Positions 45,489 to 57,872 of a stretch of DNA of 64,000 nt are shown in pieces. The notes under the pieces are model-generated. The model did not search any database. It had not been told where the DNA came from and was given only the letters and a program-made list of their open reading frames with translations. This DNA is from Candidatus Aminicenantota bacterium. GTDB taxonomy: Bacteria; Acidobacteriota; Aminicenantia; Aminicenantales; UBA4085. Both the position numbers and the translations under genes were made by a program. The number at the start of each line of letters is the position of its first letter. The first letter of the stretch is position 1. The stretch spans positions 213,922 through 277,921 of the forward strand of contig PLMN01000029.1 in assembly GCA_003141555.1 (NCBI GenBank), read 5' to 3'.

Positions 45489-47162
45489 TCAGCCCTTCGG
45501 CGCCTCCGGATTCAGCCGCTCGAACTCCAGGAGGAGGTCCCGGACCCGGGCGACGGGCAGTCCCACCACGTTGTCGAAATCTCCCTCGATTTTCGCCACC
45601 AGAGCGTCGCCGGATTCCTGGACGGCATAGGCGCCCGCCTTGTCGAGGCAGTCCACCGCATCCAGGTAGCCCTCGATCGCCTCGGGCGTCAGCTCCTTGA
45701 ACGTGACCCAGGTGGTCTCGTGCCCGTGGAGGAGCCGGCGGCCGGTCCGGCGATAGAGGGTGAAGCCGGTGACAACGCGATGGCGCCGTCCCGAGAGCTT
45801 GGCCAGCATTTCACCCGCTTCGGCCCGGTTCGCGGGCTTGCCGAAGATCTCGTTCTCGAGGCAGACGAGCGTGTCGGCGGCGATGATCAAGGCCTTCGGG
45901 TACCGTTCCCCGACCGCCTCGGCCTTTGCGACCGCCGCCCGGACGGCATAGCCCGCCGGGTTGCGCTCGCGGAGGGGCTCCTCGTCGATGCCGCTCGGCA
46001 CGACGAGGAAGTCGTCCACGATCCGCTTGAGCAGCTCGCGGCGCCGGGGGGAAGCCGAGGCGAGGATGATGCCGGGCGCGCCGTCGGCCGGGTCAATGCC
46101 GTCCGGTTCTACCGGAACCGTGACCGCCGGGCCGGGAGCGCCGTAATGCTCGACCATCACCGACCGCCAGTCCGTCTCGCTCTTGATCCCGACGAAGGCC
46201 ATGCGGACCTTGGCCGGGTGGGGATGGACCCGGGCGTAATGGATCCCGAAGGTGCGCATGCGCTTCTCGGCCCGCCGCTGTCCGTAGAGCGCCCGGGCCA
46301 GCTCGAAATGCCGCTCCAAGAGCTCGCGCTGCTCCTCGAGGCTCGGGAGAAAAGGCGGGCGGCCCGCGGCAAGGTCTCTCGCCTGGCGGAAGATCCAGGG
46401 GTTGCCGATTGCCCCTCGCGCCGCCAGGACGCCGTCGAGCCCGGTCTCCTCCAGCATTCGCAAAGCGTCGGCGGCGCTCGTGACGTCGCCCGAGCCAAGG
46501 ACGGTCTTCTCCGGGAAAGCGCTCTTTACCCTCTTGAGGAAGCTCCAATCCGCGCGGCCTTTGTATTTCTGGTCCACGCTCCGGGCGTGGACGGCGATCG
46601 CCGCAACACCGGCTTCGAAAGCGCCCCGGGCGATCTCCCAGAAGGCCTCGTTCTCGACGTCGGACGCGAGGAAGGCCCGCCGGAGCTTCAGGGTCACCGG
46701 CCGATCGGGGACCGCGTCCAGGACCGCCCGGACGGTGTCCAAGGCGACCCGCGGGTTGCTCATCATGTAGCCCCCGCGCTTCTTGGAAACCACCTTTCTG
46801 ACGGGGCAGGCAAAGTTCAAGTCGATGACGTCGAAGCCCATGTCACGCAGGACGACGGCCGCCTGGGCCATGACCTTCGGCTCGATGCCCATGATCTGCC
46901 CGGCCAGGGGATGATCCGCGGCGTCCATCCGGACGAGCTTTCTCCGCAGCTTCCCGTCGAGGAGAAGCAGGCGGTCGAGCATAGCCTCGGTGGTACAGTA
47001 CGGCGCGCCGGCCGACCGGCAGATCAGGCGGTAGCTGAGATCGCTGAACCCGGCCAGGGCGGCCAGGCCGACCGGAAAATCGAGGACGAGAGGACCGATC
47101 CGCAGGGGTTTGACGAGCGGGACCGAACCGCCCGGCGGGGGATTCGACGATGCCGCGGCCAT
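45489..47162 (-). CDS. Fusion of tRNA-dihydrouridine synthase and Maf nucleotide pyrophosphatase
   Basis: A 557-aa two-domain protein. Residues 1-350 are a Dus flavoenzyme: ALAGFSDLSYRLICR, DLNFACPVRKVVSKKRGG with catalytic Cys119, and GSGDVTSAADALRMLEET plus GVLAARGAIGNPWIF at the FMN site. From about residue 360 a Maf domain begins: GIILASASPRRRELLKRI, then IIAADTLVCLENEIFGKP and VVTGFTLYRR. Dus reduces uridines in tRNA; Maf hydrolyses noncanonical or pyrimidine nucleoside triphosphates to monophosphates. The reading frame is open throughout, so this is a true fusion. It lies 14 nt after the 909-aa gene on the same strand. Confidence 0.9.
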   Translation of the reverse strand: MAAASSNPPPGGSVPLVKPLRIGPLVLDFPVGLAALAGFSDLSYRLICRSAGAPYCTTEAMLDRLLLLDGKLRRKLVRMDAADHPLAGQIMGIEPKVMAQAAVVLRDMGFDVIDLNFACPVRKVVSKKRGGYMMSNPRVALDTVRAVLDAVPDRPVTLKLRRAFLASDVENEAFWEIARGAFEAGVAAIAVHARSVDQKYKGRADWSFLKRVKSAFPEKTVLGSGDVTSAADALRMLEETGLDGVLAARGAIGNPWIFRQARDLAAGRPPFLPSLEEQRELLERHFELARALYGQRRAEKRMRTFGIHYARVHPHPAKVRMAFVGIKSETDWRSVMVEHYGAPGPAVTVPVEPDGIDPADGAPGIILASASPRRRELLKRIVDDFLVVPSGIDEEPLRERNPAGYAVRAAVAKAEAVGERYPKALIIAADTLVCLENEIFGKPANRAEAGEMLAKLSGRRHRVVTGFTLYRRTGRRLLHGHETTWVTFKELTPEAIEGYLDAVDCLDKAGAYAVQESGDALVAKIEGDFDNVVGLPVARVRDLLLEFERLNPEAPKG

Positions 47163-47176
47163 GGCGCTCCCGCTTC

Positions 47177-49906
47177 CTAGCGCGTCGTGATCAGGTTTCT
47201 GCCGCGCATCTCCTCGAGCGCCTTCTTCCAGTCGCCGGCCGCGCCCCAGAGGTAATAGGAGAAATAGCGCACGGTCTTCTGGTAGATCGGCACCCAGGGC
47301 TGGAATTCAACATAGTAATGGTTGGATTCGCCGTTGGAGGGATGGTTCATCCACATGTGGAGGAACTCGGGCTCGCTCACGGGGAACGCCCCGACGAAGG
47401 CGATGTCTTCCTTGGTGTCGTAGCCCGCATTCCAGCCTTCCTTCAGGCTGAGGACGCGGCCGTAATATTCCTCGGGGCGCATCCGGAATTCCCGGACTCC
47501 CTCGGTCGTCGGGACGAAAAACGCGTCCTCCGGGCCGTGGGATTTTCCGAGCTCAAGGATGGGCTGCGGGCCGATCATCTTGAGCTCGGGATTCCGGAAC
47601 GTGAGGGCGAAACGAACTTCGAGGAGGGGCGAATCCCCATAGAGAGTGAAGATCTTTTCGATGAGATTGCCGTAGAAATCCGCGTGCATCCTGACCTGGA
47701 CGTACGACCCGGTCCGCTTGACGACTTCGGCGTCGTAGACCTTGTGGGTCTCGATGCTGGCTTGGCCGAGGAAATCCTCGAATCCGCCGTAGGGGTAAAA
47801 GCCCCGCTCGCGGAACGGCCTCCGGTCGGACGCTTCCTTGGCCGGCCAGAGCTTGAAGAGGACATTATCGTTCCGGTCCTTGACGAAATATTCGATGACC
47901 CGGGCCCCGATGGCTAGGAGGGTCACCCGGACCTTGGAATTTTCGAGGCGGTATTCCGGGATCCCGTCCTTGTTGAGATCGACGTCGGTCACCGTCGCTA
48001 CTCCCACGCCTGCGGCCGCCCCGACCCCGAGCTGGCTCCAGTTCTCCACGCCCAGGGCCTTGACCCGGACGCGATATGAACCGGCGGCGAGCGGGAGCTT
48101 GAAGTCGAGAGCGCTGTATTCGGACGGCGAGATCAGGCTTTCGCGAACCTCGGTCTGGACCGGTTTTCCGGTCTCGGCTCCCGCGGGGAACACAGCGACC
48201 TCGATCGGGACCTTGGGCATCTCGGAAAAGTTGTAGATCGAAACCGGGTAGACGACTTCGGGCGCCTGTCCATAGAGAAGCTGATGAACCGAAATCGCCC
48301 GCGGGAGGTCGGCGACGGCCAGCGTCCGCTTGGTTCCGTCCTTCCATTCGAACCGGACCTGGATGGGATTTGCCCGGCCGCAGGCCGCCGGACCGGTCTT
48401 GATCTTGACGGCCTTGAAGAACGGGGTCCCCGGTTCGAGCGTGATTTTCGCCCGGGATTCGCCCACGACGGCCAGCTCGGGCGCGGTCTCGATGACGAGC
48501 GTTCCCGCGAGCGGGGCCGGTCCGAGGTTGGCGATCCGGATTTCGAGGCTGTTGCGGGAGGCCATTTCGGCCCCGATCTGGACCTGGTCGCCGAACCGGC
48601 GTTCGAGAAGGGCCCGGTCGAGAAGCAGCATCTGGAGGGCGTTGCGCAGCGGCGCCGGGCCGAGCATCTTCCCCTGGGGAAGGACGCCCACCGCCCGGCG
48701 GCCGAGGATCGCCCGGTACATCGCCTCGCGCGTCCAGCGCGTCCCTTTCTCGGCGAAGAGGACCATACATGGGGCCGCGTCCTCGCGGACCATGCCCGTA
48801 GGGAGGATGAAGGGCGCGTTTTCGGCGTCGATCTGCTTTTTGTTGCCCTCGACGGCGATGACCCCGTCATACTTGAACGCGTCGCAGTCGGCCGAGAACA
48901 CCGGCCGGAACGCCCAGCCGCCACGGTCCTTTATGAACTTGATCCAGTCCTTCTCGAGCGGCGTGTCCTGGATCTTGAAACCGTCCCAGTTCGACAATCC
49001 GAAGCCGAGCGTCTCGAAACTTCGTGACGCCTTGGCCGAGCCCACGTCCGCGACGACGGGCAGCCCGGCTTTGGACAGCCATTCGGGCAGTTGCTTTTGC
49101 ATGAGGTAATCCATGTAGCCGTCGAAGGTGAACCAGTCGTTGCCCTGGGCCAGGCCCTTGGCGATGACCTCGAGGGGATGGCCGGGAAAACACGTCACGC
49201 TGTGGAGCAGCGTCCCCGTGGCGAACCAGCCCCGGTGAAAATCATATTGACGGACGGCCGCCTCGGCGCCTTTGACCAGGTCCTTGAACCGGATGAAATC
49301 GCGGGGTTCGTCGGATAGGACGGCGAACAGGCGGCGGGCGCCGCTCGTCAGGAAAAAGGCGTGGACCGGATGAAATCCGGCCGCGTTGAATTGGTGGCTT
49401 TTCAAGGCGGCAAGCCCCGGGGTTCCGAGCCCCAAAGCGGCCGCGAGGCCGCGCCCCGCGTCCGAGGAGGCGCCGGCGTAGACGATCAGGTTCCCGGCCG
49501 TGGCGGCCAGCTTCGCGTTCAGAGCGTCGAGGCTGGGGACGTTGAGCTCCTGGCGGGGCGAGGACATTAGCTCGTCGAGGAAGCCTTCCTCCATCCACAG
49601 CCCCGGGATGCCCAGCTCCTCGGCGACGTCGACCTTGTTCTGGAGGATCGTCCCGGCGACATCCGGGAGGCTCATCTGGAACAGGTTGCCGTACTGGTAG
49701 CCGTTCCAGGCCAGGCTGTGCCAGTAATTCGTATAGCCGTGGAACTGGCCCGGCGTGACGATGGGGGAAGGGCCGAGGCCGGGCGGCGCCGCGTATTTGA
49801 AATCGTCGAGCCGGGTCGGGGCCTGCGGGTCCGCGTGCAGAAACAGGGCGGCCGGGGCGAACATGAAACAGAAAATTAAGGCGGGGGCGATCCTGGTGCG
49901 GCTCAT
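47177..49906 (-). CDS. Large secreted protein of unknown family
   Basis: A 909-aa protein with a signal peptide (LIFCFMFAPAALFLHA). The first 400 residues look like a TIM-barrel glycosidase (GYTNYWHSLAWNGYQYGN, GLWMEEGFLDELM, NDWFTFDGYMDYLMQKQLPE). The next region is Ig-like beta sandwiches. After about residue 640 a mutarotase-like beta-supersandwich follows (GVATVTDVDLNKDGIPEYRL, YPYGGFEDFLGQ, MWMNHPSNGESNHYYVEFQ). I do not recognise the family; a polysaccharide-degrading or binding role is likely from architecture. GGAAAGGAG precedes the ATG. Confidence 0.7.
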   Translation of the reverse strand: MSRTRIAPALIFCFMFAPAALFLHADPQAPTRLDDFKYAAPPGLGPSPIVTPGQFHGYTNYWHSLAWNGYQYGNLFQMSLPDVAGTILQNKVDVAEELGIPGLWMEEGFLDELMSSPRQELNVPSLDALNAKLAATAGNLIVYAGASSDAGRGLAAALGLGTPGLAALKSHQFNAAGFHPVHAFFLTSGARRLFAVLSDEPRDFIRFKDLVKGAEAAVRQYDFHRGWFATGTLLHSVTCFPGHPLEVIAKGLAQGNDWFTFDGYMDYLMQKQLPEWLSKAGLPVVADVGSAKASRSFETLGFGLSNWDGFKIQDTPLEKDWIKFIKDRGGWAFRPVFSADCDAFKYDGVIAVEGNKKQIDAENAPFILPTGMVREDAAPCMVLFAEKGTRWTREAMYRAILGRRAVGVLPQGKMLGPAPLRNALQMLLLDRALLERRFGDQVQIGAEMASRNSLEIRIANLGPAPLAGTLVIETAPELAVVGESRAKITLEPGTPFFKAVKIKTGPAACGRANPIQVRFEWKDGTKRTLAVADLPRAISVHQLLYGQAPEVVYPVSIYNFSEMPKVPIEVAVFPAGAETGKPVQTEVRESLISPSEYSALDFKLPLAAGSYRVRVKALGVENWSQLGVGAAAGVGVATVTDVDLNKDGIPEYRLENSKVRVTLLAIGARVIEYFVKDRNDNVLFKLWPAKEASDRRPFRERGFYPYGGFEDFLGQASIETHKVYDAEVVKRTGSYVQVRMHADFYGNLIEKIFTLYGDSPLLEVRFALTFRNPELKMIGPQPILELGKSHGPEDAFFVPTTEGVREFRMRPEEYYGRVLSLKEGWNAGYDTKEDIAFVGAFPVSEPEFLHMWMNHPSNGESNHYYVEFQPWVPIYQKTVRYFSYYLWGAAGDWKKALEEMRGRNLITTR

Positions 49907-50042: not shown

Positions 50043-51974
50043 ATGATTGATTTCCTCTTCAAGCCGTTCGGCGATATGATGCCCGAGGATTATGCCCGCG
50101 TCGGGTTCAAGTCCGGCCTCGAGATCCATCAGCAGCTTCTGACCGCGAAGAAGCTTTTCTGCCGCTGCCCGGCCGGCCGCTACAGCCAGAAATACGATGC
50201 CGAGATCCTCCGCCACATGCGCCCGACCCTGTCCGAGCTCGGCGAATACGACGGCACGGCCCTCATGGAGTTCAAGACCAAGAAGGAGATCATCTACCGG
50301 ATCAACCGGGAGACGGTCTGCACCTACGAGATGGACGATACCCCTCCGTTCATGATCAACGAGGAGGCGCTCGACATCGCCCTCGGGATCGGCCTGCTCT
50401 ACGAGTGCATCATGGTCGACGAGCTGCACATCGCCCGCAAGCAATACCTGGACGGCAGCATCCCGACCGGCTTCCAGCGGACGACGATCGTCGGGGTGGA
50501 CGGCCATGTCCCGTACAAGGACCGGTCGATTCACATCATCCAGCTCGGCCTGGAGGAGGATGCCTGCCGCGAAGTGAGCGACATCGGCCACCGCCGGATC
50601 TATCGTACCGATCGGCTGGGGATGCCCCTCATCGAGACCGTCACCGCCCCGGACATGAAGACGCCCCATGAAGTGGCTGACGTCGCCCAGCTCCTGCGGC
50701 GCATCGTCCGGAGCACGGGCGGCGTGCGGACGGGCCTCGGCGCCGCCCGCGAGGACGTGAACGTCAGCGTCACGGGCGGCACGCGCGTCGAGATCAAAGG
50801 CGTCCCCCGTATTCCCCGCATCCCGCGCCTGACTTACAACGAGGCCATGCGGCAGTGGAACCTCCTCCGCCTCCGGGACGAGCTCGCCCGCCGAGGCGTC
50901 ACGACGGCCGCGTTTTCGTCCTGTTTGGAGGACGTCACCAAGCACTTGAAGAAGACCCGCTACCAGCCCCTCGAATCGGCCCTGTCCCAGGGGATGACGG
51001 CCTTTGGTGTCCGCTTGAAGGGATTCCGCGATCTGCTCCGCTGGCAGACCCAGACCGATACCTTCTTCAACCAGGAGATCTCGGACCGCGTTCGGGTCAT
51101 CGCCTGCCTGACCACGCTGCCCAACATCGTCCATTCCGACAGCCCGGGCGAGTCCCTGGCGAGCTCGGAGTGGGGCAATATCAAGAAGGCCCTTGCCGCC
51201 CGGGACGAGGACACGGTGGTCATCGTCTGGGGGCCGGAAGCCGACGCGCGTCTCGGAGTGCAGGAGATCATCTCCCGTGCTCGCGAAGCGACGATCGGCA
51301 TCCCGTCGGAGACGCGCCAGGCCCTCCGGGACGGGACCAACGGGTTCGAGCGCATCTTGCCCGGGCCCGACCGGATGTATCCCGATACCGACCTCCCGCC
51401 GAAGCGCATCCCCGCCGAACGCCTGGCCGCGATCCAGGCGAAGCTCCCTCCGCGCATCCCGTCGCTCGAGCGCTGGTACGCCGAGCTCGGCGTTCCGGTC
51501 GATCTCATCCCCGCCCTGTCGGGCTCGAAATTTGCGGAGCTTTTCGAGACCGCGGTTAAAGACTGGAAGCTCTCGCCCCGGCTGGCGGCCCTCGTCCTGG
51601 CCCAATATCCGAAAAGGCTGAAGCGAAAAGGCCTGCCCTGGCGCGATTTGGATGCGACCGCCCTTTCCTCTGCGCTCCAAGCCGTCCGCGACGGAGCGCT
51701 GCGGAGGGAAGGACTTCTTCCGCTCCTCGAGCGCGTCCTCGGCGAGCATACGACCGCGGCCGCGCTCCTCGCCGCCGGCGCGCCCGCCGGAGATCCGGCC
51801 CGGGAGCTGGACGAGATCGCGGCCGGACTGGCCGGCCGGAAATTTTCCACGACGGCCGGGGCTGCCCGGCGGGCCATGGGCTTGTACATGGCGAAATGGC
51901 GGGGATTCGTCGACGGCGCCGCCGCGGCGAAGAGCTTCGAGGCGCGGCTCGGGCACAGGCCAGGCCATGACTGA
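50043..51974 (+). CDS. gatE: Glu-tRNA(Gln) amidotransferase subunit E (archaeal-type)
   Basis: A 643-aa GatB/GatE-family kinase-transamidase subunit. The cradle begins VGFKSGLEIHQQLLTAKKLF and has CRCPAGRYSQKYDAEILRHM, then the metal and ATP region HIARKQYLDGSIPTGFQRTT. GatE rather than GatB is shown by the inserted AspRS-type GAD domain (about residues 290-410, ending near GFERILPGPDRMYPDTDLPP) and total length over 600. The tail has the YqeY-like helical domain. It activates Glu on Glu-tRNA(Gln) to make Gln-tRNA(Gln). gatD overlaps its end by 8 nt. Confidence 0.93.
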   Translation: MIDFLFKPFGDMMPEDYARVGFKSGLEIHQQLLTAKKLFCRCPAGRYSQKYDAEILRHMRPTLSELGEYDGTALMEFKTKKEIIYRINRETVCTYEMDDTPPFMINEEALDIALGIGLLYECIMVDELHIARKQYLDGSIPTGFQRTTIVGVDGHVPYKDRSIHIIQLGLEEDACREVSDIGHRRIYRTDRLGMPLIETVTAPDMKTPHEVADVAQLLRRIVRSTGGVRTGLGAAREDVNVSVTGGTRVEIKGVPRIPRIPRLTYNEAMRQWNLLRLRDELARRGVTTAAFSSCLEDVTKHLKKTRYQPLESALSQGMTAFGVRLKGFRDLLRWQTQTDTFFNQEISDRVRVIACLTTLPNIVHSDSPGESLASSEWGNIKKALAARDEDTVVIVWGPEADARLGVQEIISRAREATIGIPSETRQALRDGTNGFERILPGPDRMYPDTDLPPKRIPAERLAAIQAKLPPRIPSLERWYAELGVPVDLIPALSGSKFAELFETAVKDWKLSPRLAALVLAQYPKRLKRKGLPWRDLDATALSSALQAVRDGALRREGLLPLLERVLGEHTTAAALLAAGAPAGDPARELDEIAAGLAGRKFSTTAGAARRAMGLYMAKWRGFVDGAAAAKSFEARLGHRPGHD

Positions 51975-53355
51975 GACGAGCCTCTACAAAGGCTACAACG
52001 GGCGGGCCCTCCAGGTCCTTGAGCATTTCCAGGCGGCCGTCTGGAGCGACCTCAAGATCACCACGACGAAGGGCGAATACACGGGCATCATCCTGCCCCG
52101 GTCGGAGACGGCCGATTCTCTCCACATCGTCCTCAAGCTGCGATCGGGCTACAACATCGGCATCCTGGCCGACGCCGTGACGGCCGTCGACATCACGGGC
52201 CGCAAGGAAGCCCATTACAAGATCCCCGAGAAGGAGTTCCCCTACGACCCGGTGAAGCCGCGCGTCAAGCTCCTCGGCACGGGTGGCACGATCGCTAGCC
52301 GCCTCGACTACCGGACGGGGGCGGTCATCCCGGCGTTTTCCCCGGGCGAGCTCTATGGCTCGGTGCCCGAGCTGGCCGACATCTGCAATCTTGAAACCGA
52401 GAAGCTCTTCGGCGTGTTCAGCGAGAACATGGGCCCCGAGCAATATATCGGGACGGCCCAGGCCATCGCCCGCGAAATCGCCAAGGGCGTCCAGGGGATC
52501 GTCATTGGCCACGGCACCGACACCATGCACCACACGGCCGCGATCCTGTCGTTCATGGTCCAGGACTCGCCCGTGCCCATCGTCATGGTCGGCTCCCAGC
52601 GTTCGAGCGACCGGCCGTCCTCGGACGCCGCGCTCAACCTCATGCACAGCGTCAAGACCGCGGCCGAGAGCGACATCGCCGAGGTCATGGTCTGCATGTT
52701 CGGGCCGACGTCGGACCTCTACGGCCTGCTTCACCGCGGAACGCGCGTCCGGAAGATGCACTCGAGCTACCGGTCGACGTTCCGGACGATCGGCGACATC
52801 CCCATCGCTATGGTCAGCCGGGAGAAGATCACCCCGCTCCGGCAGGACTACAAGCGGCGCCGGGCCGACCGGAACGTCAAGATCAACACCGCCTTCGAGG
52901 AGAAGGTCAGCATCGTCTATTACTACCCCAACATGAAGCCGGACATCATCGATTCCTTGATCGACAACGGCTATCGGGGCATCGTCATCGCCGGAACCGG
53001 CCTCGGCCACGTCAATAAGCCGCTCTATCCCGCGCTCAAGCGGGCCCAGGACAAGAAGATCGCGGTCTACATGACCGTCCAGACGCTCTGGGGCTACGTT
53101 CAGATGTATGTCTACGACACCGGCCGGGACATGATGGAGCTGGGGGTCATTCCCGCGGCGAACATGCTTCCCGAAGTGGCCTACGTCAAGCTTGCCTGGG
53201 CGCTCGGCCAGACGACCGACGTCGAGGAGGTCAAGCGGATCATGCTGACGCCCATCGCCGGCGAGATCACGGAGCGCGAGCCGTCGAACGGCTACCTCAT
53301 CTTCCAGGGCGGAATCCCGGAAGTCGAAGAGTTCATCTCAAAGTACCGGAAATAA
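51967..53355 (+). CDS. gatD: Glu-tRNA(Gln) amidotransferase subunit D (archaeal-type)
   Basis: A 462-aa asparaginase-like subunit. The N-terminal 80 residues form a small barrel (SDLKITTTKGEYTGIILPRS) specific to GatD. The L-asparaginase fold follows with the catalytic Thr108 (GTGGTIASRLDY), Thr184-Asp185 (GHGTDTMHHT) and Lys230 (NLMHSVK). It releases ammonia from Gln or Asn for GatE. The ATG lies 8 nt inside gatE. Archaea usually have gatD first; the order here is reversed. No gatA, gatB or gatC lies in the window. Confidence 0.93.
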   Translation: MTETSLYKGYNGRALQVLEHFQAAVWSDLKITTTKGEYTGIILPRSETADSLHIVLKLRSGYNIGILADAVTAVDITGRKEAHYKIPEKEFPYDPVKPRVKLLGTGGTIASRLDYRTGAVIPAFSPGELYGSVPELADICNLETEKLFGVFSENMGPEQYIGTAQAIAREIAKGVQGIVIGHGTDTMHHTAAILSFMVQDSPVPIVMVGSQRSSDRPSSDAALNLMHSVKTAAESDIAEVMVCMFGPTSDLYGLLHRGTRVRKMHSSYRSTFRTIGDIPIAMVSREKITPLRQDYKRRRADRNVKINTAFEEKVSIVYYYPNMKPDIIDSLIDNGYRGIVIAGTGLGHVNKPLYPALKRAQDKKIAVYMTVQTLWGYVQMYVYDTGRDMMELGVIPAANMLPEVAYVKLAWALGQTTDVEEVKRIMLTPIAGEITEREPSNGYLIFQGGIPEVEEFISKYRK

Positions 53356-57377: not shown

Positions 57378-57872
57378 ATGATGGACCAGCGCGAGGAATT
57401 GGTCTATGAGGCCCTAACCGTCCTGGGGATTCCCTTCGTCCGCCACGAGCACCCGCCCGTCTTCACGGTCCAGGAAGCGCTCGTTTATTGGAAAGATATC
57501 GAGGGAGCCCATTGCAAAAACCTGTTCCTCCGAAATAAGAAGGGCAATCACCATTATCTGCTCATCGCCGAGTTTCTCAAGACGGTGGATCTCCGGGCCG
57601 TGGCCAAGGCGCTCGGCGATGACCGCCTGAGCTTCGCCTCGGATGAGAGGCTGGACCGCTGCCTGGGGCTCCATCCCGGCGAGGTCTCTCCCTTCGGGCT
57701 GCTCCGGGACGCGGACCGCCGGGTGACGGTGATCCTCGACGAGGGGCTGACCGGATGGGAGAAAGTGAATTTCCATCCGAACGTCAATACCGCGACCTTG
57801 ACGATCGCCTATGCCGACTTCCGGAGGTTTCTGGCCTCGCGCGGAAACCGGCTGATCGAATTGTCCTTGTGA
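57378..57872 (+). CDS. ProX/YbaK-type aminoacyl-tRNA editing domain protein
   Basis: A 164-aa trans-editing domain. It contains FVRHEHPPVFTVQEALVYW, EGAHCKNLFLRNKKGNHHY (catalytic Lys region) and FASDERLDRCLGLHPGEVSP (GxxPGEVSPFGL), typical of PrdX/ProX that deacylates Ala-tRNA(Pro). A stand-alone editing domain often compensates for a ProRS lacking its INS domain. The ATG pair at 57378 follows a GGAGCGAGG-like site. Confidence 0.88.
   Translation: MMDQREELVYEALTVLGIPFVRHEHPPVFTVQEALVYWKDIEGAHCKNLFLRNKKGNHHYLLIAEFLKTVDLRAVAKALGDDRLSFASDERLDRCLGLHPGEVSPFGLLRDADRRVTVILDEGLTGWEKVNFHPNVNTATLTIAYADFRRFLASRGNRLIELSL

Follow-up and report, generated by a model that had tools for sequence, protein, structure and literature searches.

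A GatDE-type amidotransferase gene pair beside glutaminyl-tRNA synthetase in a Candidatus Aminicenantes genome

Introduction

Reviews place the amidotransferase GatDE in archaea only (PMC9499178, 2022; PMC8007984, 2021), and PMC7373986 likewise calls it archaeal. The archaeal enzymes of Pyrococcus abyssi (1zq1) and Methanothermobacter thermautotrophicus (2d6f) consist of two subunits, a GatE with a GAD insertion and a helical tail, and a GatD with an N-terminal domain and asparaginase domains. Bacterial GatCAB has, by family, the same chemistry, and the cradle, helical and tail domains of GatE have counterparts in GatB, although GatB with GatA/GatC is another protein pair. In Bdellovibrio, Deinococcus and Thermus, GatCAB is found beside GlnRS and AsnRS, with a presumed role in forming Asn on tRNA; as of 2014, the two routes to Gln-tRNAGln were not known from any single bacterium (PMC4206432). 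Here we analyse a stretch of 64,000 nucleotides (the window) from a Candidatus Aminicenantes metagenome-assembled genome (MAG) of 3.79 Mb and 97% completeness, placed by its nearest named relatives. A first-pass annotation of this window had reported an overlapping pair of archaeal-type GatDE genes, in the order E then D. It noted that GatDE is generally described as archaeal-specific, with bacteria using GatCAB; this agrees with the reviews, but not with the recurrence of GatDE in several bacterial phyla described below. Bacterial GatDE may already have been noticed elsewhere, since automatic annotation with the NCBIfam models would give such genes their name.

Results

The gene pair and its parts are located in the window as follows:

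50043–51974, forward strand: gatE, ATG at 50043 and TGA at 51974, 643 aa, assigned to a bacterial GatE subfamily, above the cut-offs of NF003107 and TIGR00134
50043–50087, forward strand: N-terminal extension of GatE (aa 1–15, MxDFxFKPFxEMT), kept in bacteria according to the alignment, the archaeal match beginning at aa 16
50088–50897, forward strand: GatB/GatE catalytic cradle (aa 16–285, with a second part at aa 396–460), delimited by PF02934 and domain-wise identities
50904–51299, forward strand: GAD-like insertion of GatE (aa 288–419), by structural match to the AspRS GAD region
51423–51962, forward strand: helical and tail (YqeY-like, tRNA-binding) region of GatE (aa 461–640), highly divergent among bacteria
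51967–53355, forward strand: gatD, ATG at 51967 and TAA at 53355, 462 aa, assigned to a bacterial GatD subfamily, above the cut-offs of TIGR02153 and NF003217
53278–53352, forward strand: C-terminal extension of GatD (aa 438–462, E-x2-NGYLxFQGGxPEVEEF), kept in bacteria beyond the archaeal match

Both genes are intact and overlap by 8 bases (ATGACTGA, 51967–51974). Against the NCBIfam models, GatE scored 511.6 bits with NF003107 (cut-off 456) and 441.4 bits with TIGR00134 (cut-off 319.6), while GatD, run on 51958–53352, scored 515.9 bits with TIGR02153 (cut-off 324) and 518.9 bits with NF003217 (cut-off 310). The top solved structures for GatE were 1zq1_C and 2d6f_C, both by sequence and by fold. 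The window proteins thus share with archaeal GatDE the two-subunit composition, the catalytic motifs of both subunits and the domain arrangement. They differ in sequence, with identities to the two archaeal references of 29–38% for GatE and 44–52% for GatD, in the added GatE N-terminal and GatD C-terminal segments of the bacterial type, and in the divergent tail. The asparaginase-type residues T108, Y115, T184, D185 and K263 of GatD are invariant in the bacterial alignment; the catalytic role of each is assigned from what is established for asparaginases and GatD.

Pfam recognized GatB_N, GatD_N and both asparaginase domains in gatE-gatD, but not the GAD domain that the first-pass annotation had ascribed to GatE. 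In the AlphaFold model of GatE (pLDDT 78), for which archaeal GatE was the best structural match overall, residues 288–419 nevertheless matched the GAD region of E. coli AspRS with a Z-score of 14.1 (aspartyl-tRNA synthetases, Z 11–14). The ascription can therefore be upheld on structural grounds, the insertion being present, though diverged beyond the reach of the Pfam model. In the same model, the helical and tail region was predicted as a confident helical domain; both the GAD domain and the tail fold are retained. The model of GatD was poor (pLDDT 64) and was excluded from use. The gene pair had also been credited with a bacterial-type promoter of its own; we found no sigma-70-like promoter 5′ of gatE.

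A second MAG with the name Candidatus Aminicenantes (L006) encodes the closest GatE (84% identity); in it, eight genes, from a Dus-Maf gene through a YbaK gene, occur in the same order and on the same strand. Identities between the two loci were 76% for Dus-Maf, 84% for GatE and 94% for GatD. The GC3 values of gatE (87%) and gatD (91%) were equal to or slightly above those of the flanks (78–89%), and 80 bacterial loci come from independent assemblies. Contamination by, or misassembly with, an archaeal contig, the concern raised by the first-pass annotation, is ruled out by the synteny, the uniform GC3 and the 80 bacterial loci. Nothing was found in its favour, and we consider its probability negligible. 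The overlapping pair accordingly belongs to a true bacterial genome. Apart from the gatE-gatD pair itself, no shared neighbour gene that would hint at a pathway emerged when the bacterial loci were compared.

The window neighbourhood has several features of its own. On the reverse strand, positions 45489–47162 hold a 557-aa open reading frame in which a tRNA-dihydrouridine synthase (Dus, aa 33–317) is fused to a Maf domain (aa 365–546); the 76% identical protein of L006 has the same fusion. It is followed at 47177–49906, also on the reverse strand, by a gene for a 909-aa protein without a Pfam match, which is syntenic and 78% identical in L006. At 57378–57872 on the forward strand, 4 kb 3′ of gatD, lies a gene for a YbaK/ProX-type aminoacyl-tRNA editing domain protein, syntenic in L006. 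In two KSB1-like genomes (L014 and L017), about 3 kb of DNA separates gatE from gatD; elsewhere the pair is adjacent.

The genome was searched for the equipment for Gln- and Asn-tRNA synthesis. No second GatB_N-family protein was found besides the GatE of the window, and no GatA exceeded the cut-off, the best match reaching 164.6 bits against a cut-off of 481. The genome encodes a full-length GlnRS (704.6 bits, cut-off 425.8), whose gene lies directly 3′ of the single GluRS gene, on a contig other than that of gatDE. This sole GluRS is bacterial (gltX_bact, 427.8 bits, cut-off 290; gltX_arch, just 121.7 bits, cut-off 402). Furthermore, the genome encodes AsnRS and a bacterial AspRS, and contains three strong Asn_synthase matches of the AsnB type. 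The archaeal elements of tRNA-Gln are A1-U72 and A73 (PMC9499178). Such a tRNA was not found in this genome, which contains only two tRNA-Gln genes, each with U1-A72 and G73, the bacterial pattern. The host thus differs from the archaeal Gln-tRNA pathway in its GlnRS, its bacterial GluRS and its bacterial-type tRNA-Gln. Like the bacteria that combine GlnRS with GatCAB, it keeps an amidotransferase alongside GlnRS and AsnRS; it differs from them in having AsnB-type genes and in that GatDE belongs by family to the Glu-tRNAGln enzymes. The question posed by the first-pass annotation, namely what GatDE replaces, had a split answer: GatB, and GatA above the cut-off, are indeed absent, but GatDE fills no gap. 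A role as stand-in for a missing Gln route, or for GatCAB in the supply of glutamine, was rejected because GlnRS is present. Asn-tRNA is an improbable target, because AsnRS and three AsnB-type genes are present.

GatDE recurs in Acidobacteriota, Ignavibacteriota, Kapabacteria, KSB1 and Marinimicrobia. To relate its distribution to that of GlnRS and GatB, 118 Aminicenantia genomes were scored for GatE, GatB and GlnRS. GatE together with GlnRS, without GatB, was found in 48 genomes, GatB without GlnRS in 38, and GlnRS alone in 21. Six genomes had GatE without a found GlnRS, all of them less than 90% complete; one (8% contaminated) had GatB and GatE, one had GatB and GlnRS, and three had none of the three. 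When only genomes at least 90% complete were counted (by hand, from the tables), GlnRS was present in 34/34 genomes with GatE and in 0/31 with GatB. Short open reading frames (46–75 aa) matching the first 30–55 residues of GatB were seen in genomes with GlnRS but neither GatB nor GatE (G007:C139:9055-9141, G026:C73:18235-18327, G028:C28:55872-55970 and G003:C1:172541-172794); they may be gene remnants or small proteins.

In the wider phylum Acidobacteriota, GatE was found in 33/247 genomes, several of which, outside the class, carry GatB too. Four Acidobacteriota genomes (G185, G313, G327 and G358) each hold GatE, GatB and GlnRS together. Outside the class, GlnRS was detected in 22/22 GatE-positive genomes (one as a fragment) versus 36/58 GatE-negative ones. 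The Fisher p-values for the link between GatE and GlnRS, 7e-9 within the class and 4e-4 outside it, ignore shared ancestry, no species tree having been used, and are indicative only. Among 50 named GatE-positive genomes, mostly of Ignavibacteriota, plus Kapabacteria, KSB1 and Marinimicrobia, and with five apparently already in the class set, 46 had GlnRS when split genes were counted. In each of four families (f2, f6, f23 and f36), some genomes have GatE and GlnRS and others have GatB but no GlnRS, which shows that the pattern is not the outcome of a single historical event. Members of the window's family (f1) have just one GluRS copy, and GatB-only relatives mostly two.

In the phylogeny of both subunits, the bacterial GatDE proteins formed one clade apart from the two archaeal references (support 100/100), an archaeal sampling too thin to show nesting inside archaea, from which the partial frame of an unannotated Natrinema gatE (L139) was left out. 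The bacterial proteins constitute a distinct subfamily. Within the clade, GatDE of f1 and f6 grouped with Ignavibacteriota, KSB1 and others, and the other Aminicenantia branched deeper; a single Aminicenantia clade could not be formally dismissed (AU test, p 0.129). The GatDE of a MAG named Desulfobulbaceae was near-identical to that of Ignavibacteriae HGW-1 (L060 and L066), suggestive of misbinning or recent transfer. The GlnRS of the window's host was 71–88% identical to that of several Aminicenantia families and 60–68% to that of other phyla, whereas the first 455 residues of the window GatE were 70–81% identical to those of the same other phyla and only 49–63% to those of several Aminicenantia families. 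GlnRS and GatDE therefore probably did not travel together; their linked transfer is unsupported, given the separate contigs and different closest relatives (Aminicenantia versus Ignavibacteriota and allied phyla). Since the two histories differ, a functional reason for the co-occurrence becomes more likely. The first-pass alternative of ancient transfer or lineage trait can be narrowed to a trait of several phyla rather than an isolated import. An ancient transfer from archaea is possible; the bacterial clade lies far from both archaeal references.

The two subunits differ in conservation. Between Aminicenantia and other phyla, GatD is 61–87% identical, with 210 of its 462 positions invariant in bacteria, which indicates strong selection; GatE is 40–69% identical. 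Both archaeal proteins share 87 of the 154 GatE and 112 of the 210 GatD positions invariant in bacteria, and bacteria-specific invariants number 44 in GatE, many of them close to catalytic motifs, and 59 in GatD, the C-terminal extension included. Within GatE, the cradle averages 72–79% identity among bacteria and the helical and tail part only 23–34%. At 70–75% cradle identity, mean identity in the GatE tail is 28% (sd 6), as opposed to 47–57% for three GatB proteins of the same class at 72–74%, and the lone archaeal GatE pair has a tail identity of 37% at 58% cradle identity versus 17% for bacterial pairs at 55–60%; these control sets are small, and tail alignment error inflates the difference. 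With this proviso, the tRNA-binding tail of GatE would seem to diverge about twice as fast as expected. The usual end motif of the tail is absent in several families.

Discussion

We lean, if only slightly, towards the view that gatE-gatD encodes a working Glu-tRNAGln amidotransferase of a bacterial subfamily, which would work alongside GlnRS in repair or as a back-up. GatD would free ammonia from Gln or Asn, and GatE would use ATP to activate the Glu side chain on tRNA-Gln and then amidate it. With GlnRS as the main supply of Gln-tRNAGln in the same cell, GatDE would most likely correct any Glu-tRNAGln that GluRS might make through error or relaxed specificity, rather than be the sole source of Gln-tRNAGln. 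The equivalog scores, the archaeal GatDE proteins as best matches by fold and sequence, the shared invariant positions and the GatD catalytic residues all point to an amidotransferase. For a repair or back-up role speak the lack of GatCAB, the presence of GlnRS, a bacterial GluRS, AsnRS and bacterial-type tRNA-Gln, and the co-occurrence of GatE with GlnRS; the faster drift of the tRNA-binding tail would fit a non-essential role. However, GatD is much more conserved than a minor repair task should require, and the part that would read tRNA-Gln is the least conserved. As 21 class genomes have GlnRS without detectable GatDE, repair is not required wherever GlnRS occurs.

The main rival, which we consider unlikely but deserving of attention, is that the chemistry was kept while the substrate is new: another aminoacyl-tRNA, a non-translational use of Glu-tRNAGln, or a non-tRNA carrier. 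It would account for a GatE tail about twice as divergent as that of class GatB at equal cradle identity, for the lost tail end motifs and for the bacteria-specific invariant positions of both subunits, and GlnRS already covers the primary need for Gln-tRNA. Yet the model retains the GAD domain and the tail fold, the catalytic motifs match those of GatE, the gene neighbourhoods hold nothing conserved that would suggest a different pathway, and Asn-tRNA is disfavoured by the Asn equipment of the host. A reversal of roles, in which GatDE and a non-discriminating GluRS would be the principal source of Gln-tRNAGln, or one of equal rank, with GlnRS as accessory, seems improbable to us. The conservation of all catalytic parts of the enzyme and the weak U1-A72 first pair of tRNA-Gln are in its favour, but GlnRS occurs without GatDE in the 21 genomes mentioned, GatDE occurs without GlnRS in none that is at least 90% complete, and f1 has a single GluRS where GatB-only relatives mostly have two. 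Signs of transfer, namely the grouping of f1 and f6 GatDE with Ignavibacteriota and allied phyla instead of other Aminicenantia, might suggest a relic that is passed among phyla and retained although no function is selected; this is very improbable, being largely refuted by the conservation of GatD.

It is reasonably probable that bacterial GatDE represents a separate, GlnRS-dependent system, serving either dedicated repair of Glu-tRNAGln, with two routes per cell, or amidation of a new substrate; the latter would be suggested by the divergent tRNA-reading tail together with the hyper-conserved, extended GatD. Genomes of bacteria with GatDE contradict the statement that the enzyme is confined to archaea. 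If GatDE acts on Glu-tRNAGln, the 2014 statement that no bacterium was known with both routes to Gln-tRNAGln would be contradicted as well. Moreover, bacteria that have both enzymes make it possible to test the idea of a mutual exclusion of GatDE and GlnRS, which has been invoked to account for the failure of archaea to gain GlnRS.
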